Position numbers and translations under genes: made by a program. A DNA stretch of 64,000 nt from Lepisosteus oculatus (Eukaryota; Chordata; Actinopteri; Semionotiformes; Lepisosteidae), in the NCBI RefSeq assembly GCF_040954835.1, contig NC_090698.1:42878157-42942156 (forward strand), read 5' to 3'. The stretch's first letter is position 1, and every line of letters starts with the position of its first letter. The notes below the pieces were generated by a model. That model had not been told where the DNA came from, did not search any database, and was given only the letters and a program-made list of their open reading frames with translations. Below, one piece after another: positions 18,170-64,000 of this stretch.

Positions 18170-18294
18170 TGAGAGGATTTCCCAAATAGTCAGCAGACAG
18201 AAAGAAACCTGGAAGAGCGACTCTAAACTAAGAAAGAAAATATAGAAGTCATACACCTCTGAAGACAAATTAATTTCTCAAAATATCAAACAAA

Positions 18295-19203
18295 ATGGCA
18301 AGCTTGTGTCCTATTACATTATTAGGTCCATATCTTGACTATATGACTGAGCAAAAGATAGTTGGGTTCATACCAGAAGAATCTTTACTTCAGCCTCTGT
18401 GGACTTACCTTCGGACAAACCACCAGGAGGTGTTAAGATCTCCTCTCTTTCCTGTGATCATTTCAGTGTCCACATACTTTATGGCTTGCCTCCTCTACAT
18501 GACCCTGGATAGTCTCTCACTGGTGGTTCCAGGGATTAACAGTTACAGGATTCACCCTGACCAGCCAGTAAAGCTGCAGAGCATCCTGAAGGCGATCTGG
18601 CTCACTGTTTACAATCACGTGGTTTTTGTCTTTCCTGCAGCTGCTGCCCAGTGGTACTGGAGGCCACCTCTGCCATTGGAAGAAAAGGCACCGACAGTGC
18701 TGGAGTTCACCATGGGAATTCTGGGTTGCACACTACTCTTTGATTTCCAATATTACTTCTGGCACATGATTCACCACAAGATCCAATGGCTTTACGTGAC
18801 ATTCCATGCCATCCACCATGAATACTTTCAACCTTTCTGCTGGGTTACCCAGTACATGTCTGCTTGGGAGCTGGTCAGTGTTGGCTTCTGGACGACCATT
18901 GACCCCATAATTCTCCAGTGCCATATCCTCACAGGCTACGCCTTCATGGTGTTCAACATCTGGATCTCAGTGGATGATCACAGTGGTTACGACTTCCCCT
19001 GGTCTCTGCATAACTGGATCCCGTTTGGACTGTGGGGAGGCTCTGTGAAGCATGACACCCACCATCAGAAACCAATGACAAATTTCGAGCCCTTCTTCTC
19101 TCACTGGGACTGGCTGTGTGGCACCCATTCTGACCACAGCTGCTCACCAGCCATGGCAGACAAGAAGAGCACATTTTCCCAACCTTGCCATTCTAGCAAT
19201 TGA
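18295..19203 (+). CDS. ch25hl: Cholesterol 25-hydroxylase-like protein (first copy)
   Basis: Fatty-acid-hydroxylase superfamily member. The family uses a di-iron centre in the ER membrane, and CH25H converts cholesterol to 25-hydroxycholesterol. The 302-residue intronless ORF carries three histidine boxes: HMIHH (157-161), HAIHH (171-175) and HDTHH (253-257), with a further conserved DDHSGYDFPW at 227-236. Hydrophobic segments lie near 51-80, 100-120 and 138-156. The block LLQPLW..LR and the SPLFPVI stretch (31-55) match the CH25H N-terminus. The ATG (caaaATGg) has good context, and a TATA box and AATAAA (19346) frame a compact single-exon gene, as in mammalian CH25H. It aligns without gaps over residues 28-302 with the copy at 27328. 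Fish have several ch25h-like paralogs, so the exact orthologue and substrate are uncertain. Confidence 0.93.
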   Translation: MASLCPITLLGPYLDYMTEQKIVGFIPEESLLQPLWTYLRTNHQEVLRSPLFPVIISVSTYFMACLLYMTLDSLSLVVPGINSYRIHPDQPVKLQSILKAIWLTVYNHVVFVFPAAAAQWYWRPPLPLEEKAPTVLEFTMGILGCTLLFDFQYYFWHMIHHKIQWLYVTFHAIHHEYFQPFCWVTQYMSAWELVSVGFWTTIDPIILQCHILTGYAFMVFNIWISVDDHSGYDFPWSLHNWIPFGLWGGSVKHDTHHQKPMTNFEPFFSHWDWLCGTHSDHSCSPAMADKKSTFSQPCHSSN

Positions 19204-23939: not shown

Positions 23940-24880
23940 TCTTTTTCTGCTTTGTACTTGAACTTGAACTTGAACTTTATTGCCATACGTAACCGGTACT
24001 GGTAGAATGGAATTCTTACTTACAGAAAGTCTCTCGATTGTAAAACAAGTGTAAAAAACAAAACAAAGTGCAAACAGTGCATCAAGACAATGTACAAACA
24101 AACAATCGACAATGTGCAAGTAAACATGTAGACAGTTTGAATGTAAACAATACAGACGTGTAAACAATGACTGGAGATGTGCAATAGATAGGAAATCATA
24201 AAGAGGTAGATGGTGATGGTGTAGGTGTGGTCCAAGGGGGATGGCTAAATGTGTTCGCCAGTCTCACTGCTTGTGGATAGAAGCTATTGAAGAATCTAGT
24301 GGTAAGTGTCCGTATGCTCTTATATCTCTTGCCTGAGGGCAGTGGGGTGAAGAGCTCATGCCCGGGGTGGTGAGTGTCCTCTGTGATAGAATTCTACCAC
24401 GGCAGCGGTCCTCATAGAGCTGTTTAATCTCGGTGAGACCGCAGCTGATGATCTTCTGGGCCATATTGACCATTCTCTGCAGTGCCTTTCTTTCTCGCGA
24501 AGAGGTGTTGCCATACCACACGGTGATCCCGTTGGTGAGGACGCTCTCGATAGTGCAGCGGTAGAAGTTCACCAACACATGTATTGGCATCCCCCATCGC
24601 TTGAGGCACCTCAAGAAATAAAGGCGCTGCTGAGCCTTCTTCATGATAGAGTCAGTGTTCACAGTCCAGGTTAGATCTTTAGAGATGTGAATTCCCAAAA
24701 ACCTAAAGCTGGTGACTGTTTCCACTTCCGTTCCATCAATACTGAGTGGGCTGTGAGTGTGTGGCCTGTGTCTCCGAAAGTCCACTATTAGCTCTTTCGT
24801 TTTCTTTATGTTCAAGTCCAGGTTATTGCTATGACACCACCTAAGCAGCTGTACAACTTCAACTGTTTCAGATTCTTAAC
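23940..24880 (-). mobile_element. 5'-truncated LINE with readable C-terminal ORF
   Basis: A non-LTR retrotransposon 3' end. The minus-strand translation LLRWCHSNNLDLNIKKTKEL, then FRFLGIHISKDLTW, KKAQQRLYFLRCLKRWGMP, FYRCTIESVLTNGITVWYGN and RKALQRMVNMAQKII is the typical end of an L2/CR1-group reverse-transcriptase protein. One frame change near 24385 separates it from the expected ending (ELFTPLPSGKRYKSIRTLTT, then FFNSFYPQAVRLAN, stop near 24197). The 3' end is a short GTTCAA-type tandem tail at 23958-23976. The 5' part is absent beyond about 24880. With only one break it is much younger than the other LINE relics here. Confidence 0.75.
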
Positions 24881-27220: not shown

Positions 27221-27327
27221 GATGAAGTGAAGGAGTAAACCACTTGAATTGAATCCTGACTTGGAACTACTATTGCTTCATATAAAACAAACGTTTAAAA
27301 GTTAGGTTTCTATCATTATATTTGAAA

Positions 27328-28236
27328 ATGACATGCAACAAACTACAGACAATTTATTGTGGCACCTTTCACGCCTTTCATGTGGAAAATGTCTCTTTCG
27401 ACCTCCCTGAAGAGTCTCTACTGCAGCCGTTCTGGAACTACTTACGCAGTAATTATCAAGACACCTTGCGATCACCTCTCTTTCCTATTGTCCTCTCTGT
27501 ATCTAACTACTTCTTGTCAGTGGCTCTCTACACGTTTCTGGATGTCTTGGCCCCAAGGTGGAATTGCATTAACAAGTACAAGATCCACCCAGAGAAGTCA
27601 GTTTCCTGGAACAATATATGGACAACCCTGGGCGTCACCACATACAACCACCTGGTCTACATCTTTCCTGCAGCAGTGGGTCAGTGGTATTGGAGACCCT
27701 CAACACCCCTGCCCAAAGATGCACCTGGTCTAGCTGAGTTTGTGTTTGGCATCATAGGCTGCACTATCCTCTTTGACTTTCAGTTCTACCTGTGGCATCT
27801 CCTGCACCACAAAATAGGATGGCTTTACAGAACCTTTCATGCCATCCACCACCAGTACTATGAGCCATTCAGCCTTGTCACTCAGTATCTGTCAGCCTGG
27901 GAGCTTTTTTGCGTAGGATTCTGGACCACAGTGGATCCTCTCATCCTCCAGTGTCACTGTCTCACCACTTGGGGATTTATGGTCTTCAACATCTGGATCT
28001 CCACAGATGACCACTGTGGCTATGACTTTCCTTGGTCCCTTCATAACCTGATTCCCTTTGGGCTTTGGGGAGGGTCGATCAAGCATGATGCTCATCACCA
28101 GCAGCCTCACACCAACTTTGCTCCTTTCTTCTCCCACTGGGATTGGCTGGGAGGTACAAGTTCAGCCCACTGCCATTCAGCTGCTCTGAAGGACAGGTCA
28201 ACAAAAAGAAAGCGACAGTTACAGACTTCTAACTGA
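27328..28236 (+). CDS. ch25hl: Cholesterol 25-hydroxylase-like protein (second copy)
   Basis: Intronless 302-residue member of the same hydroxylase family, presumably acting on sterols in the ER membrane. Histidine boxes are HLLHH (157-161), HAIHH (171-175) and HDAHH (253-257), all intact and at the same residue numbers as in the copy at 18295. DDHCGYDFPW at 227-236 is conserved too. The first true ATG is at 27328 (gaaaATG); an in-frame TTG six bases earlier is not used. The N-terminal 27 residues differ from the first copy, while residues 28-302 align without gaps, so this is a tandem duplicate that has diverged by substitution. The C-terminus is basic (STKRKRQ). An ISRE core and a TATA box lie just upstream. 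Which fish paralog it is cannot be settled here. Confidence 0.93.
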   Translation: MTCNKLQTIYCGTFHAFHVENVSFDLPEESLLQPFWNYLRSNYQDTLRSPLFPIVLSVSNYFLSVALYTFLDVLAPRWNCINKYKIHPEKSVSWNNIWTTLGVTTYNHLVYIFPAAVGQWYWRPSTPLPKDAPGLAEFVFGIIGCTILFDFQFYLWHLLHHKIGWLYRTFHAIHHQYYEPFSLVTQYLSAWELFCVGFWTTVDPLILQCHCLTTWGFMVFNIWISTDDHCGYDFPWSLHNLIPFGLWGGSIKHDAHHQQPHTNFAPFFSHWDWLGGTSSAHCHSAALKDRSTKRKRQLQTSN

Positions 28237-36160: not shown

Positions 36161-36425
36161 CGGGGAGTTACGGTAGCTCTGTGGCTGGAAGTTTGGCGGT
36201 TCGTATCCCGTGGCCGGCGGAGGAATCCTACTCCGTTAGGCCACTGAGCAAGGCCCTTAAGCCCAACTGCTCCATGGGCGCCATATAAATGGCTGACCCT
36301 GCGCTCTGACCTTAAGCTTCTCTCCCTGTCGGAGTGTCTCATGGAGAGCAAGCTGGGGTACGCAAAAAGACAAATTCCTAATCCAAGAAATTATATATGC
36401 CCAAAAAAAGTGATCTTATCTCTCT
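36161..36425 (+). repeat. tRNA-derived SINE family B
   Basis: The head GTAGCTCTGTGGCTGGAAG with box B-like GGCGGTTCGTATCCCG is followed by GAGGAATCCTACTCCGTTAG, ATATAAATGGCTGACCCTGC, CTCATGGAGAGCAAGCTGGG and an A-rich end. It shares all these blocks with the copy at 52884, so the two define a family distinct from A. Confidence 0.72.
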
Positions 36426-38664: not shown

Positions 38665-40686
38665 TCAGCAGCTACTTGTGTTTGTGCTTCCCGAACTTGA
38701 AGTATAGATGTCATTCCTCTTTGAATATTTCATTGAGCTAAAGGACACTCTCATTCGCTCAACAGTCCTAGCACTCCTGCAGATGAGGGTGTTTTTCACA
38801 CTGTCTCTGAACTCTTTGGAAACAAAGTAATAGATGAACGGATCTAAGCAGCTGTTCAAGCTGGCAAGGCATAGGGTGATAATGTAAAATCCATAGACAT
38901 TGTTTTCAAAGCCCTGCTTCAAGAGCGAATAGTGAGCAACAAGCATAATGTTACTGGGGGTGAAACAGATCAGGAACGTCACAAGGACGGTGATGATGAT
39001 GATGAAAGCCTTTCTGCGCTTCTTCCCGGTGTTCTCATCCGATATCGAGTCACTCAGTGTCCGAAGCAGCAAGAAATAAGCCGCTACAATTATCAGAGAT
39101 GGGATGAAATAAGCAAAGATGCCCATTGTAATGAAGTAACCAAAGGGATAATTTGTCTCGCCTACTTTGTTGACATCGTGGCAAGTGGTTATGTCTAGGT
39201 TCCCAATCTTGACAGTTTGGTCATAAAGATACAGTGGCGTTGTACTCAACCAGATTAAAATCCATATGGCAATTGAAAGGCAGACGGCAAACCGATTGTT
39301 TTTCCTCTGGGTAGACAGGGGATGGGCGATGACCCAGTATCTCTGCACACTCAAGCAGGTAATGAAAAGAATGGAACAGTACATGTTGGCATAGAAGAAG
39401 CCCACCAGCACCTTACAGAGGCCCTCACCGTAGATCCAGTTATTGCCGTTGATGTGGTAGGCAATCTTAAGAGGAAGCCAGATGACAAACAGGAGGTCTG
39501 ACAGAGCCAGGTTGGCCATGTAGATGGCGGCCGGATGCTTCTTCTTCGTTCGGAAGAGGAAAACCCAAATGGCCATGGCGTTGGTGGGCAAGCTGACAAC
39601 AAACACGATGATGTAGACGATGGGCAGGAAGACCGTGGTCAGGCCGCTCTGAAGTGTTTCTTCGGCAATTTTGTTTACCTTAAAGACGTTTTCCTTTTCG
39701 TCAATACTTGTGCCAATGAACCCACGTGAGCTACCTGCAATTAAGAAATTAGTTGATAAAGTGCCAATTTGAGATTGAGTATAAAGGAAAAAAAAAAAAC
39801 AACTGACCTAAAAAAGACCAGATAGCTTTTTCACAAAAGGAGGTTCCCAATGGAAGACGCCCTGGGTAACTACACGTACGGTAAAGTATGTTTTTTACAA
39901 TTGCCTAAATACAGTATCTTATGAAATGCTTTCCTGAGGACAGGCAATATGTACTTTCCTTCAGGGTACTGCTTTTAGCATTAACATTGCACTCATGAGC
40001 ATTACAAGCTCATGAGTCTCTTTACTTTTTTTATAAACATATTCCAAAATAATTTTTTTAAAAATGGTTTTATTCATCACAGAACGTTTTTGAAAGCAGA
40101 AAAGTGGAATCAAATAATCTCCATATTAAGAAACTGGTAACTACACAAAATACATTCTTTAAATTTATTTAAAGGATTTAAAAAAGAATCTTTCTTGCGA
40201 CAACTATGTGACGTAAGAATCTGTAAACTTCCTTAGTTCTCCGAGATACGGAAATCGCAGGACATACCTGTTTTTATTTTTGCAAAACGTTGTAACAAAA
40301 AAGGTTTTATTATTTTATGTTCAGCGTTATCCTTTTCTATAATTTAGCTACAAGTACTTTCAAAATAAACCTGCTAGTTACACGACTCTTAATTTGTGAG
40401 TATTTGAGTTAAGACAAGGAGTCCCGATATTTTTTATTTTAACATTCGTCTGGTAATTTAGCTTACTAATATAACTAACAATCGACTGTTTTCATTCCCG
40501 ATTAACTGCCATTTAACAAAACCTTGAGTTATTTGCAAGGTCAACGCGTAACACTAAGAAACGAAGTCAATCCTTTTCAGATGTATTAATCGTAAAGTCA
40601 CAAACCATAAGTAAAGTCTTACCTGCTTCATAGCTGGATATAAAGGAACTTAGCAAAAATATTACTTTAAATTTCACCGAAAACAT
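38665..40686 (-). CDS. f2rl1: Protease-activated receptor 2-like GPCR (copy A)
   Basis: Class A GPCR activated by protease cleavage of its N-terminus. Exon 1 (40623-40686) encodes a signal peptide (MFSVKFKVIFLLSSFISSY) and ends in phase 1 (GCA G|gtaaga). Exon 2 (38665-39734) begins gcag|GTAGCTCAC. The joined product is 377 residues. Just after the junction lies SSR|GFIGTS (cleavage after R25), the predicted tethered ligand. TM1 starts near 56. C128 and C206 (in the ECL2 motif ITTCHD) form the expected disulfide. SVQRY at 150-154 replaces DRY, as in human PAR2, and DPFIYY at 319-324 is the NPxxY variant. C340 in LICRS is a likely palmitoylation site. The protein ends TSSC. Residues 49-157 are identical to copy B, and flanking parts diverge. 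PAR2 rather than PAR3/4 by the SVQRYWVI, KKKHPAAIYM and tail sequences. Confidence 0.93.
40623..40686 (-). CDS. f2rl1: Exon 1 of PAR2-like copy A (signal peptide)
   Basis: A 64-base coding exon: ATG at 40686, a hydrophobic core VIFLLSSFIS, donor G|gtaaga at 40622. The phase (1) and reading frame fit exon 2 exactly, giving ...YEAGSSRGFIG. The intron is 888 bases. Confidence 0.85.
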
Positions 40687-40843
40687 GGCTGTACTTTTCT
40701 TCGCCTAACAGTGATACAAACAAAATGTGCTGTGCTTTCTAATCCAAACGCAACAAGCCGTCGTCAATTCCCCTCCGCAGCAATGCCTTTCTCTCGAGTG
40801 AAAATGAACATACACCCTGCCCCACCGCAGGCAAATATTCTTA

Positions 40844-40870
40844 CCTGCATTGCGTCATTACCTCGTGACC
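40844..40870 (-). promoter_or_regulatory. CRE-like promoter block of PAR2-like copy A
   Basis: Minus strand TCACGAGGTAATGACGCAAT, about 160-185 bases upstream of the start codon. It closely matches a block at the same place upstream of copy B, with AATGACG at the core (CRE/ATF-like half site). The surrounding DNA is locally richer in CpG than the window average. Confidence 0.55.
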
Positions 40871-41836
40871 ATATCCACCTGGCTCCTGGGTTTCGTTCGA
40901 GTCTTTGTGAATTTAAATCCAGCCGAGGATCTAGTTCATAGTAAATTCATAATACCCACATCACTTAATCATCCATGGGATTTATGTGTACTTTCACCTA
41001 ACTCCTCACAATTTCATTTTTTTTCTGCTGAACGACCTCTGAAAACAACATGGTATAATTGCTCGCTTTCTTTATTCTGCAATCTGTTCTTAAAATAACT
41101 TTTACAGTTGTAGGCACGTCACGATTAAGCGGGTATTCTGTTTGTAATTAATAAATGTAATACTGATATCAAGTATAATAGTATCACTGGTGACAGCGAA
41201 GCTAGGAGCGAAAATGGGAATAGTTCGCTTTGGAAATGGGATCCACATCTCCCACAATGTAGGAGGAAAGATTCATACAAATGCCACAGAATCAGCCAAG
41301 TGGTAAACAGCAACTCCAGTCCGACAGGTTTGTGGCTGGGGGTAGTACTTAAAGTCAGAAACAATATTCCTGACATTACCAGAGTTTTGTAAAACAACCA
41401 AATTTGCGCACCCTTAAGCTACTTTGATTTCGCTAGAAGGTGACACATAAAAAAAAAACTTTCATGAGAGAAGTTAAAAATGTTCTGGCATTTTGAATTA
41501 CACGGTGGATCTGCTGTTTTTTGCAAAGTTTCAAAAATAGTCTACTGTAAGGTAAGGCACTGGTGCAAAATAAACCTACATTATTGTGTCTCATTACTTA
41601 CAAAGACACCGCAAAGTTAAATTGAGCATTCTGTAATGTGCTATATCATAGGATGGTGAGCAGACATCTCATCTTCACTCACATATATTAAAACAACCGA
41701 TTTCATAACATTACTACATTAAAGCCACATGCAATAATGTTTTTCTTAAAGATTTGACGATGTAGAGACTGCTGTTAGTGATTCACAAATGCCTATTCAT
41801 TAAACACCACTTTTCAGTACAATGTTTTCATGGGTG

Positions 41837-42020
41837 TGTAACGGTTCTTGGGGTTTCCGCCCTTGCCTGCTCCTGCCCTGTCAGTTCGTCCCTCACTGCC
41901 TGGGCGCAAACCCGGGTCCCCGGCGTCCCGCAACAGGGAACTTGCCATCAGCACTAAAGGAGCCCCCCCACAGCCCGGGCAGCTGAGATCACTGTCATAC
42001 GCAGGGGTGTATTCGTTACA
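41837..42020. mobile_element. GC-rich short element with inverted ends
   Basis: A 184-base GC-rich island in AT-rich DNA, bounded by TGTAACG and CGTTACA. Its reverse strand shares GGGACGAAC followed by a GGCAGGAG block with a second element at 55553, whose ends are TGTCACG and CGTGACA. Either a non-autonomous DNA transposon or a short solo LTR; family unassigned. It lies within or next to the 3' flank of PAR2-like copy B. Confidence 0.5.
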
Positions 42021-42058
42021 TGTGTTTGTGTGAGAATAGGCTTAAACTGTTCAAATCC

Positions 42059-42064
42059 TTTATT
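42059..42064 (-). terminator. Candidate polyadenylation signal of PAR2-like copy B
   Basis: Minus-strand AATAAA about 500 bases beyond the stop at 42567, immediately before the GC-rich element. Confidence 0.35.
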
Positions 42065-42566
42065 GCAAATAAAATACAAAGCTTAAAATCATACAAGGCA
42101 GTTCAAACAATTCACATTTGACTAGTGCCTATACATTTTCCTTGAAAATGAGATGGTATATCTTAAAGGTTATAAACTGGTGCAATAAGTGCAAGACAGA
42201 AAGTGATTCACATTGCATTCAATTGCAAAAATTACCCATGTGGAGTGTATGAACTTAAAATATGAAAGAATACTAGAGCATGTACAGTAGGTCACTAATA
42301 AACACACCTTAAAATGTCGAGGTTTTATATCTCTTTCCTGTCAAAAAAAATCCTAAAACAAGGGTGTACAAGTCCTGACCAGACTTATACCAGAGCCAGA
42401 CCAGATAATCTTGTTCACTCAGTTTCTCCTTTAAAATATGTATATTAACTGTATTAAATAAAGAAAAAAAACATAAAAAGGTTATTTTTACAACCAGAGG
42501 GTACAAAAGTCTAACATTCAGAACAATTGTTTTCATTACAAAACAGGTGTGAATTAGCCTCTCTGT

Positions 42567-44332
42567 CTAACAGCTGCTAGTACGTGTTCCTGAATCTGAT
42601 GAATAGGACTTGCTGCTCTTTGAGTATTTCATTGCTGTGAAGGACACTCTCATTCTTTCTACAGTCCTGACACTCCTACAGATCAGGGTATTTTTCACAT
42701 TTTCGCGGAACTCCTCAGAGACGTAGTAATACAGGAAGGGATCAAAGCAGCTGTTCAAACTTGCGAGGCAGAGAGTGGCAATGTAAATGCCATAGCCATT
42801 GTTGACTTCGCCTTGCTTTAAAAGCGAATAGTGAACGAGCAGCATGACGTTGCTCGGGGTGAAACACACCAGAAACATGACGAGGACTGTGACGATGAGC
42901 AGGACCGCCTTTCGGCGTTTCTTTCCGATGTTCTCGTCCGTCATGGAGCTGGCGAGATGCCTGAGCATTAAAACATAGGCGATTATGCACACTACCGCCG
43001 GGATGAAATAAGCAAAAACGCCCATTGTGATGAAGAAACCAAAGGGATAATTGATCTGACTTGCTTTGGTGATGTCGTGGCAAATCGTAATGTCCACGTC
43101 CTTAATCTGGACGGTTTGGTCATAAAGATACAGCGAAGTGGTGCTCGCCCAGATTACAGCCCAGACTGTGATGGCGACGTAGACTGCAATCTTGTTGTTT
43201 TTCCTCTGGTGGGAGAGAGGGTGCACAATGACCCAGTATCTCTGCACACTCAAGCAGGTAATGAAAAGAATGGAACAGTACATGTTGGCATAGAAGAAGC
43301 CCACCAGCACCTTACAGAGGCCCTCACCGTAGATCCAGTTATTGCCGTTGATGTGGTAGGCAATCTTCAGAGGAAGCCAGATGACAAACAGGAGGTCTGA
43401 CAGAGCCAGGTTGGCCATGTAGATGGCGGCCGGATGCTTCTTCTTCGTTCGGAAGAGGAAAACCCAAATGGCCATGGCGTTCGTGGGCAAGCTGACAACA
43501 AACACGATGATGTAGACGATGGGCAGGAAGACCGTGGTCAGGCCGCTCTGAAGGGTGTCCCAGGCCGTTTGGTTCACTAGGGTACCATCAAGTGTTTCAA
43601 CGCCAAGAAACCCTCTTTGTTGGGAACATACTGAAATAAACAAATCACTTTTTAGGATGGCATATTCAAGTATTTTAACTCAAAATGTCATCAACACAAT
43701 ATACAGTACATATGATTAACATTAATAATTTAAAATGCATTCAAAACTGTCAGCTAAGTATGGAGACTAGAGTTAAAGAGGCTTAATGAAGTCATTACAA
43801 ATGTTGCACTTTTGTAACTGTTTTTAAAATACTACACTTCTCAGAACAACTTACAACCAGGTTAAATATTTTTTGGCTTATTCAAAACCACCTATTATAC
43901 CAAAGCTTAATTTTGCATTTAAACAGAATAATATTCAACATAAATATTCAACTTCTGAATTATACAAGATGAAATAAACTATGTTTAAACTAAAACTGAA
44001 ATGTAATGTATTAAAGTCTGAAATTCAAATTTAAAAATTAAACACATTGTGCAATGGAAAATAAAAGTGATGTATTAAAAGTGGTATCATCAAGTTAGAA
44101 AATCAAAATAAAATTAAACTACAAAATGAAGTGAATAAAATATTTTATTCATACATATTATTTTTTACTTATTTGAGGTGCGCACACACGATTGGTTTAA
44201 TCAGTTTTTTTCATCAAAGAAAAGGCAAGGTGGACAAACGCGTATTCACTACAACATTTAAAGTTACTTACCCTGTCGAGAACATATCACCAATAAAGAA
44301 AACAAATGAACTAGCCTCATTGAATAATTCAT
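42567..44332 (-). CDS. f2rl1: Protease-activated receptor 2-like GPCR (copy B)
   Basis: Tandem paralog of the copy at 38665, same strand, about 1.9 kb further upstream. Exon 1 (44272-44332) encodes the signal peptide MNYSMRLVHLFSLLVICSRQ and ends CAG G|gtaagt (phase 1). Exon 2 (42567-43630) starts ttatttcag|TATGTTCCC. The product is 374 residues. The predicted cleavage site is CSQQR|GFLGVE (after R26), followed by an NQT glycosylation site. Key receptor motifs are kept: ECL2 ITICHD, SVQRYWVI after TM3, DPFLYYY in TM7, LICRSVRTVERMRVSF in the tail, and end TSSC. The TM1-to-TM3 DNA is nearly identical to copy A; TM4 to TM7 is clearly diverged. Zebrafish also has two f2rl1 genes, but whether these are one-to-one orthologues is not shown. 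Confidence 0.93.
44272..44332 (-). CDS. f2rl1: Exon 1 of PAR2-like copy B (signal peptide)
   Basis: A 61-base coding exon from ATG at 44332 to the phase-1 donor G|gtaagt. A second in-frame ATG is at 44320. The hydrophobic stretch HLFSLLVI is a plausible signal core. The frame joins exon 2 as ...CSRQVCSQQRGFLG. The intron is 641 bases. Confidence 0.82.
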
Positions 44333-52883: not shown

Positions 52884-53150
52884 GGGGCGGAGTGGTGGCT
52901 CTGTGGCTAAGGATCTGTGCCCGTAGCTGGGAGGTTGCTGGGTCAAATCCTGTGGTTAGCAGAGGAATCCTACTCTGTTGGGCCCCTGAATAAACCCCAG
53001 CTGCTCCAGGGGTGCTGTACAATGGCTGACCCTGTGCTCTGACCTCAAGCTTCTCTCCCTGTCTGTGTGTCTCATGGAGAGCAAGCTGGGGTATGCAAAA
53101 AAAGACAATTTCCTAATGCAAGAAATTGTATATGGCTAATAAAGTGATCT
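52884..53150 (+). repeat. tRNA-derived SINE family B
   Basis: GTGGTGGCTCTGTGGCTAAG head, box B-like GCTGGGTCAAATCC, then GAGGAATCCTACTCTGTTGG, ACAATGGCTGACCCTGTGCT, CTCATGGAGAGCAAGCTGGG and an ATGGCTAATAAAGTGATCT tail. It is collinear with the 36161 copy. Confidence 0.72.
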
Positions 53151-62698: not shown

Positions 62699-63777
62699 TT
62701 AATCCACAACCTTACTGTATATCAACTGCTCAAGGTTGGACTGCAAGGTTTCCTTTTTACTGTTTTGGTTGCTTCTTGAATGTGAACTGCTGGCCATCCC
62801 TCGGTTGCTCTTACACTGCAGGAGACTATAGACCTTCTTCTGATATTGTGAAGACCCAAAGTAGTAAATTACAGGGTCCAGACAGCAGCTCACACTGCCA
62901 ATACACATGGATAGAAGATAGACCATGTAGGACTTATCACTGTATCCAGTGGCAAACTGAGCATAGTGAATGAGCAAGACAATGTTAGTTGGCAGGAAAC
63001 AAACTACAAAAACAATGAAAACAGTAATGGCCATGAAAATTGCTCTGGACTTCTTGGTCCTGTTGTCTGCATTGGAAGCCTTGAGGCACCGAATGATACG
63101 GACATAACAAAAAGTGATAGAAACCAACGGTATGAAGAAAAAAATGGAGCTGAAAATTGGAAAGAAGTAAAGGTAGAAGCCTTTAAACTCTTCAATTCTC
63201 AGTGCATCGTGGCAGGTAGTAATGCTCAGCCGTGGTAAATAGGCAGTCTGCTCGGATAGGAGAATGGGCATGACCCCGCCAATGGCAAGGAGCCACATGG
63301 TGCAACACACAATCATGGCATTCTTCTGTCTGCGCCAGGTGAGAGACTTCATGGGATAAACCACAGCCAGTAAGCGGTCCACACTCATACACATCACAAG
63401 CAGAACAGAGCAGTACATGTTGCAGTAGAAGGCAGAAGTTACTATGCGGCACATTGCAGGTCCATATCCCCAGTTATTGCCATTGAAATGGTAAGAAATC
63501 TTAAACGGAAGGAGAAGGACAAACAGCAAGTCGGCAACTGCCAGATTCAGCATGTATATCGCTGCTGGCTTCTTCGGACGAATTTTCAAGATGAACATGA
63601 TGACTGCAATGGCATTCAGGGGACAGCTGATGATGAACACCAGGGTATAAACAGTAGGGATAAGAATGGTCGTCAGAGGTCCAGTGAGGTATTGCGTGGC
63701 TTCTTTTGATGTCGACATACTGGTGTTGCCATCTCCAATTCTGTTTGTGAAGACTGGGAAACCTTTGTCAATCAACT
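62699..63777 (-). CDS. f2r: PAR1-like thrombin-receptor-family GPCR, exon 2 (partial gene)
   Basis: Second exon of a protease-activated receptor. The acceptor tccatgtcag|AG TTG gives phase 1, the same as the PAR2 pair, so the upstream signal-peptide exon must lie beyond 64000. The exon gives 358 full residues: seven TM segments, NNWGYGPAMC and ECL2 ITTCHDAL (disulfide cysteines), SVDRLLAVVYPM (DRL, as DRF in PAR1), KKSRAIFM, DPVIYY, LLQC palmitoylation region, and a tail SNLEQLIYSKVVD that resembles the human PAR1 end. The exodomain is short: LIDK|GFPVFTNRIGDGNTS, then about 20 residues to TM1. I see no LDPR-type thrombin site, no SFLLRN-like ligand and no acidic hirudin-like stretch. K|GFPVF is the best candidate ligand. 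PAR1 by TM and tail sequence; PAR3 or a lineage-specific paralog is possible. Confidence 0.88.
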
Positions 63778-64000
63778 CTGACATGGAAAGATCAAATCAA
63801 CAAATTAAGTTAAAGAGGAGCCTATTTTAAGGTAGGCAACAGAAAATATTAATATTATAACAGAAGTAAATATTAGCTTATATGCTATGACTTTTTCAAA
63901 TGTAAAGTTTACATACAGTGCCAGTGGACATTTCTTAGCCTACACAAACTTAATGAGCTTTTTTTTAATTTTTGCTCTGTAGATATCAGTACACAGGAAT

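Follow-up and report, generated by a model that had tools for sequence, protein, structure and literature searches.

Mosaic gene conversion in tandem G protein-coupled receptor (GPCR) genes is established for CCR2 and CCR5 (PMC8877049). For the mammalian pair, Vazquez-Salat 2007 (cited in PMC2720389 and PMC8877049) placed the conversion in the structural parts, namely the transmembrane helices (TM) and the intracellular loops (ICL). In bats, the CCR2/CCR5 tracts were extensive and varied in place; they always included extracellular parts and never the N-terminus (PMC8877049). Conversion was also proposed for CXCR1/CXCR2 (PMC4052464). Among the protease-activated receptors (PARs), zebrafish has a linked PAR2 pair, par2a/par2b (f2rl1.1/f2rl1.2; PMC12173237), and Par1-like paralogues lie within 0.2 Mb of it (PMC3408399). 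A literature search, judged by title and the start of the abstract, found no report of gene conversion or concerted evolution of PARs. Here, a window of 64,000 nucleotides from Lepisosteus oculatus was analysed, which is 42878157-42942156 of contig C3 in a 1.2-Gb assembly of 813 contigs. Four matches to HoxA13_N would accord with a vertebrate lineage that lacks the teleost genome duplication. It carries two tandem PAR2 (F2RL1)-like genes, copies A and B, with a nearly identical tract inside otherwise diverged sequence. It is highly probable that ectopic (interlocus) gene conversion recently carried a segment of about 326 bp between these two old genes. The tract was located as follows.

39329 to 39654, minus strand: putative conversion tract of copy A, TM1 to the start of ICL2, residues 49-157; 2/326 differences to copy B; same edges in the change-point scan
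43228 to 43553, minus strand: putative conversion tract of copy B, residues 47-155; 2/326 differences to copy A; edges from the change-point scan

The preliminary description of this DNA had attributed the tract to recent gene conversion, and the analysis upheld this. The two 326-bp stretches lie at an offset of exactly 3899 and differ only at window positions 39469 and 39583. As had been claimed, both differences are silent on the minus strand (CTT/CTG for Leu and ACC/ACG for Thr), and the gene models place the span of copy A from TM1 to the start of ICL2. The sharp drop of identity on both sides was found as well. The edge codons differ at once, and the flanks are near-saturated in silent divergence. 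At the upstream edge the adjoining codon differs (ACA/ACC); at the downstream edge the end codon differs in its third base (ATC/ATT) and is followed by GCC/GTG. The edges are thus sharp to within one codon. A DNA search of the whole assembly matched the tract at two places, copies A and B, and found no third copy. The sharp edges, the near-zero silent divergence inside and near-saturation outside, the two genome matches and the similar patterns in neighbouring paralogues all speak for conversion.

Silent divergence was compared between the tract and the parts on either side of it. Silent codons differ in 2/101 cases in the tract versus 60/144 in the 3' part, and four-fold sites in 2/49 versus 33/57, with 4/7 in the short 5' part. 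Over all sites, the 3' parts of A and B differ at 179/660 positions (27%). Synonymous divergence (dS) rises from 0.042 in the tract, counted over 109 codons (one above the strict tract), to 1.20 on the 3' side; on the 5' side it reaches 1.69, a value taken from 40 loosely aligned codons. If up to two differences are allowed, the longest silent-codon run covers 101 of 254 and was reached by none of 10,000 shuffles (shuffle maximum 52), while the longest run with zero differences, 43, was reached by 1 of 10,000. A change-point scan without prior edges returned codons 43-150 in the numbering of copy B (B codons), which is the tract itself. In an ungapped repeat scan of 30000-64000, A and B paired only inside exon 2. 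Both copies kept diverged flanks on both sides of the tract, and therefore a single crossover does not suffice. The tract divergence of 0.6% (95% interval 0.07-2.2%) is comparable in size to that seen in the flanks of P1 and P2 (0.6-1.7%), two PAR1-like copies described below. Copies A and B have a higher GC content at third codon positions (GC3) in the tract, 77/101 and 78/101 (76-77%), than in the 3' part, 118/214 and 129/211 (55-61%). This is what biased conversion would give, a sign that may lend support although it is not required. In the 3' part adjoining the tract, GC3 is 46/73 in B versus 36/73 in A. This is a weak hint of copy B as the donor, which is not claimed.

The gene models of the two copies are these.

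38665 to 39734, minus strand: exon 2 of copy A, PAR2/F2RL1-like; open reading frame with 7tm_1 match (2.7e-55), splice acceptor and frame; contains the exodomain end with R/GFIGTS, the seven-helix core, the C-tail and the stop
40623 to 40686, minus strand: predicted exon 1 of copy A; start codon, signal-peptide-like MFSVKFKVIFLLSSFISSYEA, phase-1 donor GTAAGA, in-frame join to exon 2
42567 to 43630, minus strand: exon 2 of copy B, PAR2/F2RL1-like; open reading frame with 7tm_1 match (6.8e-51), best PDB relative human PAR2; contains R/GFLGVE, the seven-helix core, the C-tail and the stop
44272 to 44332, minus strand: predicted exon 1 of copy B; MNYSMRLVHLFSLLVICSRQ, phase-1 donor GTAAGT, in-frame join to exon 2

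Both models have two exons, are open and in frame, and show GT/AG splice signals. The encoded proteins, with 377 (A) and 374 (B) residues, are 75% identical. For exon 1 of copy B, a scan for a signal-peptide open reading frame followed by a phase-1 donor gave four candidates. Two of them are the chosen exon with its two ATGs, so that an alternative start at 44320 is possible. Against solved structures, copy B matched human PAR2 with an E value of 2.6e-130, PAR1 with 4.7e-64 and PAR4 with 2.3e-53. Judged from their sequence, copies A and B are PAR2 (F2RL1)-like, with two exons, a signal-peptide-like start on the predicted exon 1 and a basic cleavage site before the tethered ligand. Protease cleavage would be expected at R/GFIGTS and R/GFLGVE.

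According to the protein search, contig C3 carries, besides A and B, four PAR1-like copies (P1-P4); a further PAR-like gene, at 43042093, is more distantly related. The array begins inside the window.

62699 to 63796, minus strand: exon 2 of P1, PAR1-like (42940948 on contig C3), first copy in an array of four that extends past the window

A DNA search with this exon gave four matches, all on contig C3. Its TM1-TM3 block, which corresponds to the A/B tract, is homogenised with the other copies of the array. Silent differences in the block versus the 3' part are 2/98 versus 20/159 for P1/P3, 5/95 versus 38/149 for P1/P4, and 5/93 versus 27/142 for P3/P4. The exodomains of the PAR1-like copies are strongly diverged (dS >1 over about 35 codons). 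P2 is a mosaic, being near-identical to P1 in the exodomain and to P3 from extracellular loop 2 (ECL2) to TM5, and is then out of frame. P1 and P2 lie inside a young segmental duplication (window 62916-64000 onward; contig C3, 42942157-42962156) whose flanks are 98-99% identical. The 3' end of P2, frame-shifted after TM5, adjoins an inverted repeat of nearby DNA (73096-73380 versus 74951-75235 in continued window coordinates). P4 (contig C3, 42987387-42991310) has a long acidic stretch after the tether (YEPIDFTYLDV...) that is absent from P1-P3 and presumably resembles the hirudin-like part of PAR1.

On contig C10, at 43281008-43349765, there are six genes on one strand that read as chemokine-receptor-like, and two subgroups of them are homogenised in roughly the block that is homogenised in the PARs. 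The silent differences in the block versus the 3' part are 6/96 versus 40/129 for the genes C1/C2, 8/96 versus 42/128 for C3/C2, 2/92 versus 17/184 for C1/C3, and 15/80 versus 51/125 for C4/C6. Of the 44 protein-search matches, 43 were used. A match on contig C30 with an internal stop was left out, and the longest open piece alone was used for matches with internal stops. A comparison of 47 receptor frames gave 1081 pairs, of which 11 are close (at least 52% identity) and 1070 diverged. Among the 11 close pairs, which come from four groups, 9 showed a silent deficit in the block (Fisher p < 0.05), the weakest being C1/C3 with 0.041; the result for P1/P2 takes in its out-of-frame tail. The deficit was not significant by the same test in P2/P3 (0.42) and P2/P4 (0.13). 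The change-point scan was run on eight close pairs, the P2 pairs being left out. The edges obtained, in B codons, were as follows.

A/B: silent sites 43-150; all codon differences 43-150
P1/P4: silent sites 58-160; all codon differences 52-160
P3/P4: silent sites 52-168; all codon differences 52-160
P1/P3: silent sites 43-335; all codon differences 43-335
C1/C2: silent sites 12-196; all codon differences 12-163 (14-195 and 14-162 in another alignment)
C1/C3: silent sites 24-301; all codon differences 35-284
C3/C2: silent sites 24-226; all codon differences 36-163
C4/C6: silent sites 95-151; all codon differences 85-151

The 3' edge falls at ICL2 or the start of TM4 (B codons 150-168) in 4/8 pairs by silent sites (A/B, P1/P4, P3/P4 and C4/C6). 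By all codon differences it does so in 6/8, with C1/C2 and C3/C2 added and all four groups represented. The broader reading of this recurrence is that tandem class A receptors here evolve as a rule in two halves. The TM1-to-ICL2 half would be converted repeatedly, often with an edge at ICL2/TM4, while the ligand end and the part from ECL2 to the tail diverge, independently in the PAR2, PAR1 and chemokine-receptor-like arrays. We put this forward tentatively, holding it at slightly less than even confidence.

Could the tract be explained without any conversion? Extreme constraint on silent sites since the duplication, through splicing, RNA structure or an overlapping element, would also keep the two copies alike. 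The block is indeed the best-conserved part of the protein, with 90/108 residues as in human PAR2 versus 103/216 in the 3' part. Diverged receptors of the same genome served as the control for this. The silent test took pairs that share 38% identity or more across 150 or more residues, which gave 38 pairs (8 close and 30 diverged). In the 30 diverged pairs (38-54% identity), silent codons pooled differ in 806/1540 cases in the block (0.52) versus 1170/2118 in the 3' part (0.55). Their odds ratios range from 0.41 to 2.58, and 3/30 are nominally significant (two low, one high). Eleven further diverged chemokine-receptor-like pairs gave odds ratios of 0.71-1.46, none of them significant. Over the 1070 diverged pairs, binned silent divergence is 0.46-0.62 within the block and 0.51-0.75 beyond it. 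The slightly lower values in the block favour constraint to that extent. However, so small a dip cannot yield 2/101 versus 60/144, and it is far too small to explain the A/B tract. In addition, the Rfam scan of the window found no family at gathering score, the tract contains no intron, and its edges are sharp to a codon. We therefore regard constraint without conversion as scarcely credible. An assembly or polishing artefact, in which the sequence of one copy was written into both places, is very improbable as well. The repeat of 326 bp does exceed the length of short reads, and there is a single assembly. Against this, no N occurs across 94 kb (the window and the next 30 kb), and the repeats shared by P1 and P2, 2-4 kb long and 98-99% identical, were resolved within the same 94 kb, which argues for a long-read assembly and against collapse. 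Moreover, the copies keep two differences in the tract, the assembly search found no spare copy on other contigs, and polishing could hardly bridge a divergence of 27%. Related patterns in three other receptor groups are also difficult to reconcile with an artefact.

Gene conversion thus remains the preferred reading of the event, and the cause of the position of the block is a separate matter. The preliminary description had proposed that conversion homogenises the membrane half and leaves the ligand and ECL2 free to differ. As an outcome this was found. It need not be the cause, since the limit of homology alone would predict the same block. The DNA identity was higher in the block than in the 3' part in 1058/1058 of the diverged, non-independent pairs that had enough columns among the 1070. 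The homology limit can therefore explain where the block lies without selection on the ligand end. TM7 is nearly as conserved as the block, but it is short and less homogenised; silent divergence of the close pairs is 0.27 at TM7 (B codons 307-324) versus 0.03-0.09 at B codons 55-162, as expected if conversion requires an extended stretch of common sequence. In the mechanism we propose, a break or a stalled fork in one copy would be repaired with the sister gene, some 3.9 kb distant, as template. The heteroduplex would spread no further than the block in which protein constraint preserves similarity (TM1 to TM3 with short loops). It would halt where homology fails, which is the exodomain at one end and ICL2/TM4 at the other. 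Every such event would renew identity, and the restored identity would make the next conversion easier, while the exodomain, ECL2, TM5-TM6 and the tail diverge. Alternatively, conversion may occur anywhere in the exon, with selection retaining the events in the membrane core and purging those that mix the ligand-binding parts (exodomain and ECL2) between receptors for different proteases. In favour of this, both A/B and P1/P3/P4 have diverged in ECL2 and around the tethered ligand, many edges lie at the exodomain and at ICL2/TM4, and similar proposals exist for CCR2/CCR5, TLR1/TLR6 and EMR2 (PMC2720389). However, the homology limit predicts the same place, the exchange in P2 runs through ECL2 to TM5 (though P2 is a broken copy), and the bat conversions always touched extracellular parts, never the N-terminus (PMC8877049). 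This adaptive cause, a rival on the cause and not on the event, seems rather unlikely to us. The homology limit is the simpler reading, and the data do not separate it from selection.

Several points weigh against our interpretation. The evidence comes from a single assembly of one individual. The dS of 1.20 between A and B is near saturation and bounds the age of the duplication only from below. The control odds ratios are below 1 in 20/30 pairs and the silent dip is deepest at TM3 (B codons 127-144, 0.41-0.46), so that a slight silent constraint in the block is likely. The 1058 diverged pairs are not independent, nor are the close pairs of one group. Edges also vary between pairs. In the two closest ones, P1/P3 (43-335) and C1/C3 (24-301), the similarity spans most of the gene, the silent 3' edge lies at 195-196 in C1/C2 and at 226 in C3/C2, and the C4/C6 segment begins only at codon 85-95. 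In segment shuffles, which covered five pairs, the P3/P4 segment was reached by 1/200, and those of A/B, P1/P4, P1/P3 and C1/C2 by 0/200. The GC3 rise is absent in P1, P3 and P4 and barely present in C1/C2. GC3 was accordingly rejected as a general sign of conversion, as it holds for A/B only.

The same window contains other open frames and repeats. Two frames in tandem, 18274-19203 and 27286-28236, read from their sequence as CH25H-like (fatty-acid hydroxylase). Used as a control, this pair showed no conversion tract, the longest run with two mismatches being 26 nt. An open frame at 24264-24875 looks like a fragment of a LINE reverse transcriptase, and Pfam labels its middle ALKBH8_N. Two repeat copies at 36181-36368 and 52923-53101 are alike in two pieces, at 74% and 94%.

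This single genome with internal controls shows that conversion in tandem receptors can concentrate in about the same structural block across unrelated groups. A simple cause can be offered for its position, namely that this is where the shared DNA is longest. The finding bears on how duplicated receptors remain partly alike while their sensing ends drift. If evolution in two halves holds true, receptors would in general evolve with a module made by recombination. Whole-gene trees of PAR1/PAR2 paralogues can mix two histories. The tree placement of the zebrafish Par1-like copies depended strongly on the method (PMC3408399).

Compared with known systems, the A/B event belongs to a class already described. 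As in CCR2/CCR5, where conversion was repeated in several lineages, the partners are neighbouring class A receptors. In contrast to CCR2/CCR5, there is here a PAR2-like pair with one tract of 326 bp, and further groups of the same genome have a similarly placed block. The cone opsin genes are split into several exons, whereas the whole receptor core of A and B lies in one exon. Fish tandem opsins otherwise resemble A/B as tandem GPCR genes with gene conversion, according to titles and the starts of abstracts. The zebrafish locus is similar in having a linked PAR2 pair with two exons each and extra Par1-like copies close by (PMC3408399, PMC12173237). The transmembrane parts of those copies are highly conserved and their N- and C-termini differ, as here; gene conversion is not mentioned in the available parts of the two accounts. 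Mosaic conversion in tandem GPCRs is thus already known; the PAR2-like case adds to it, and within this one genome the block recurs across four tandem groups.

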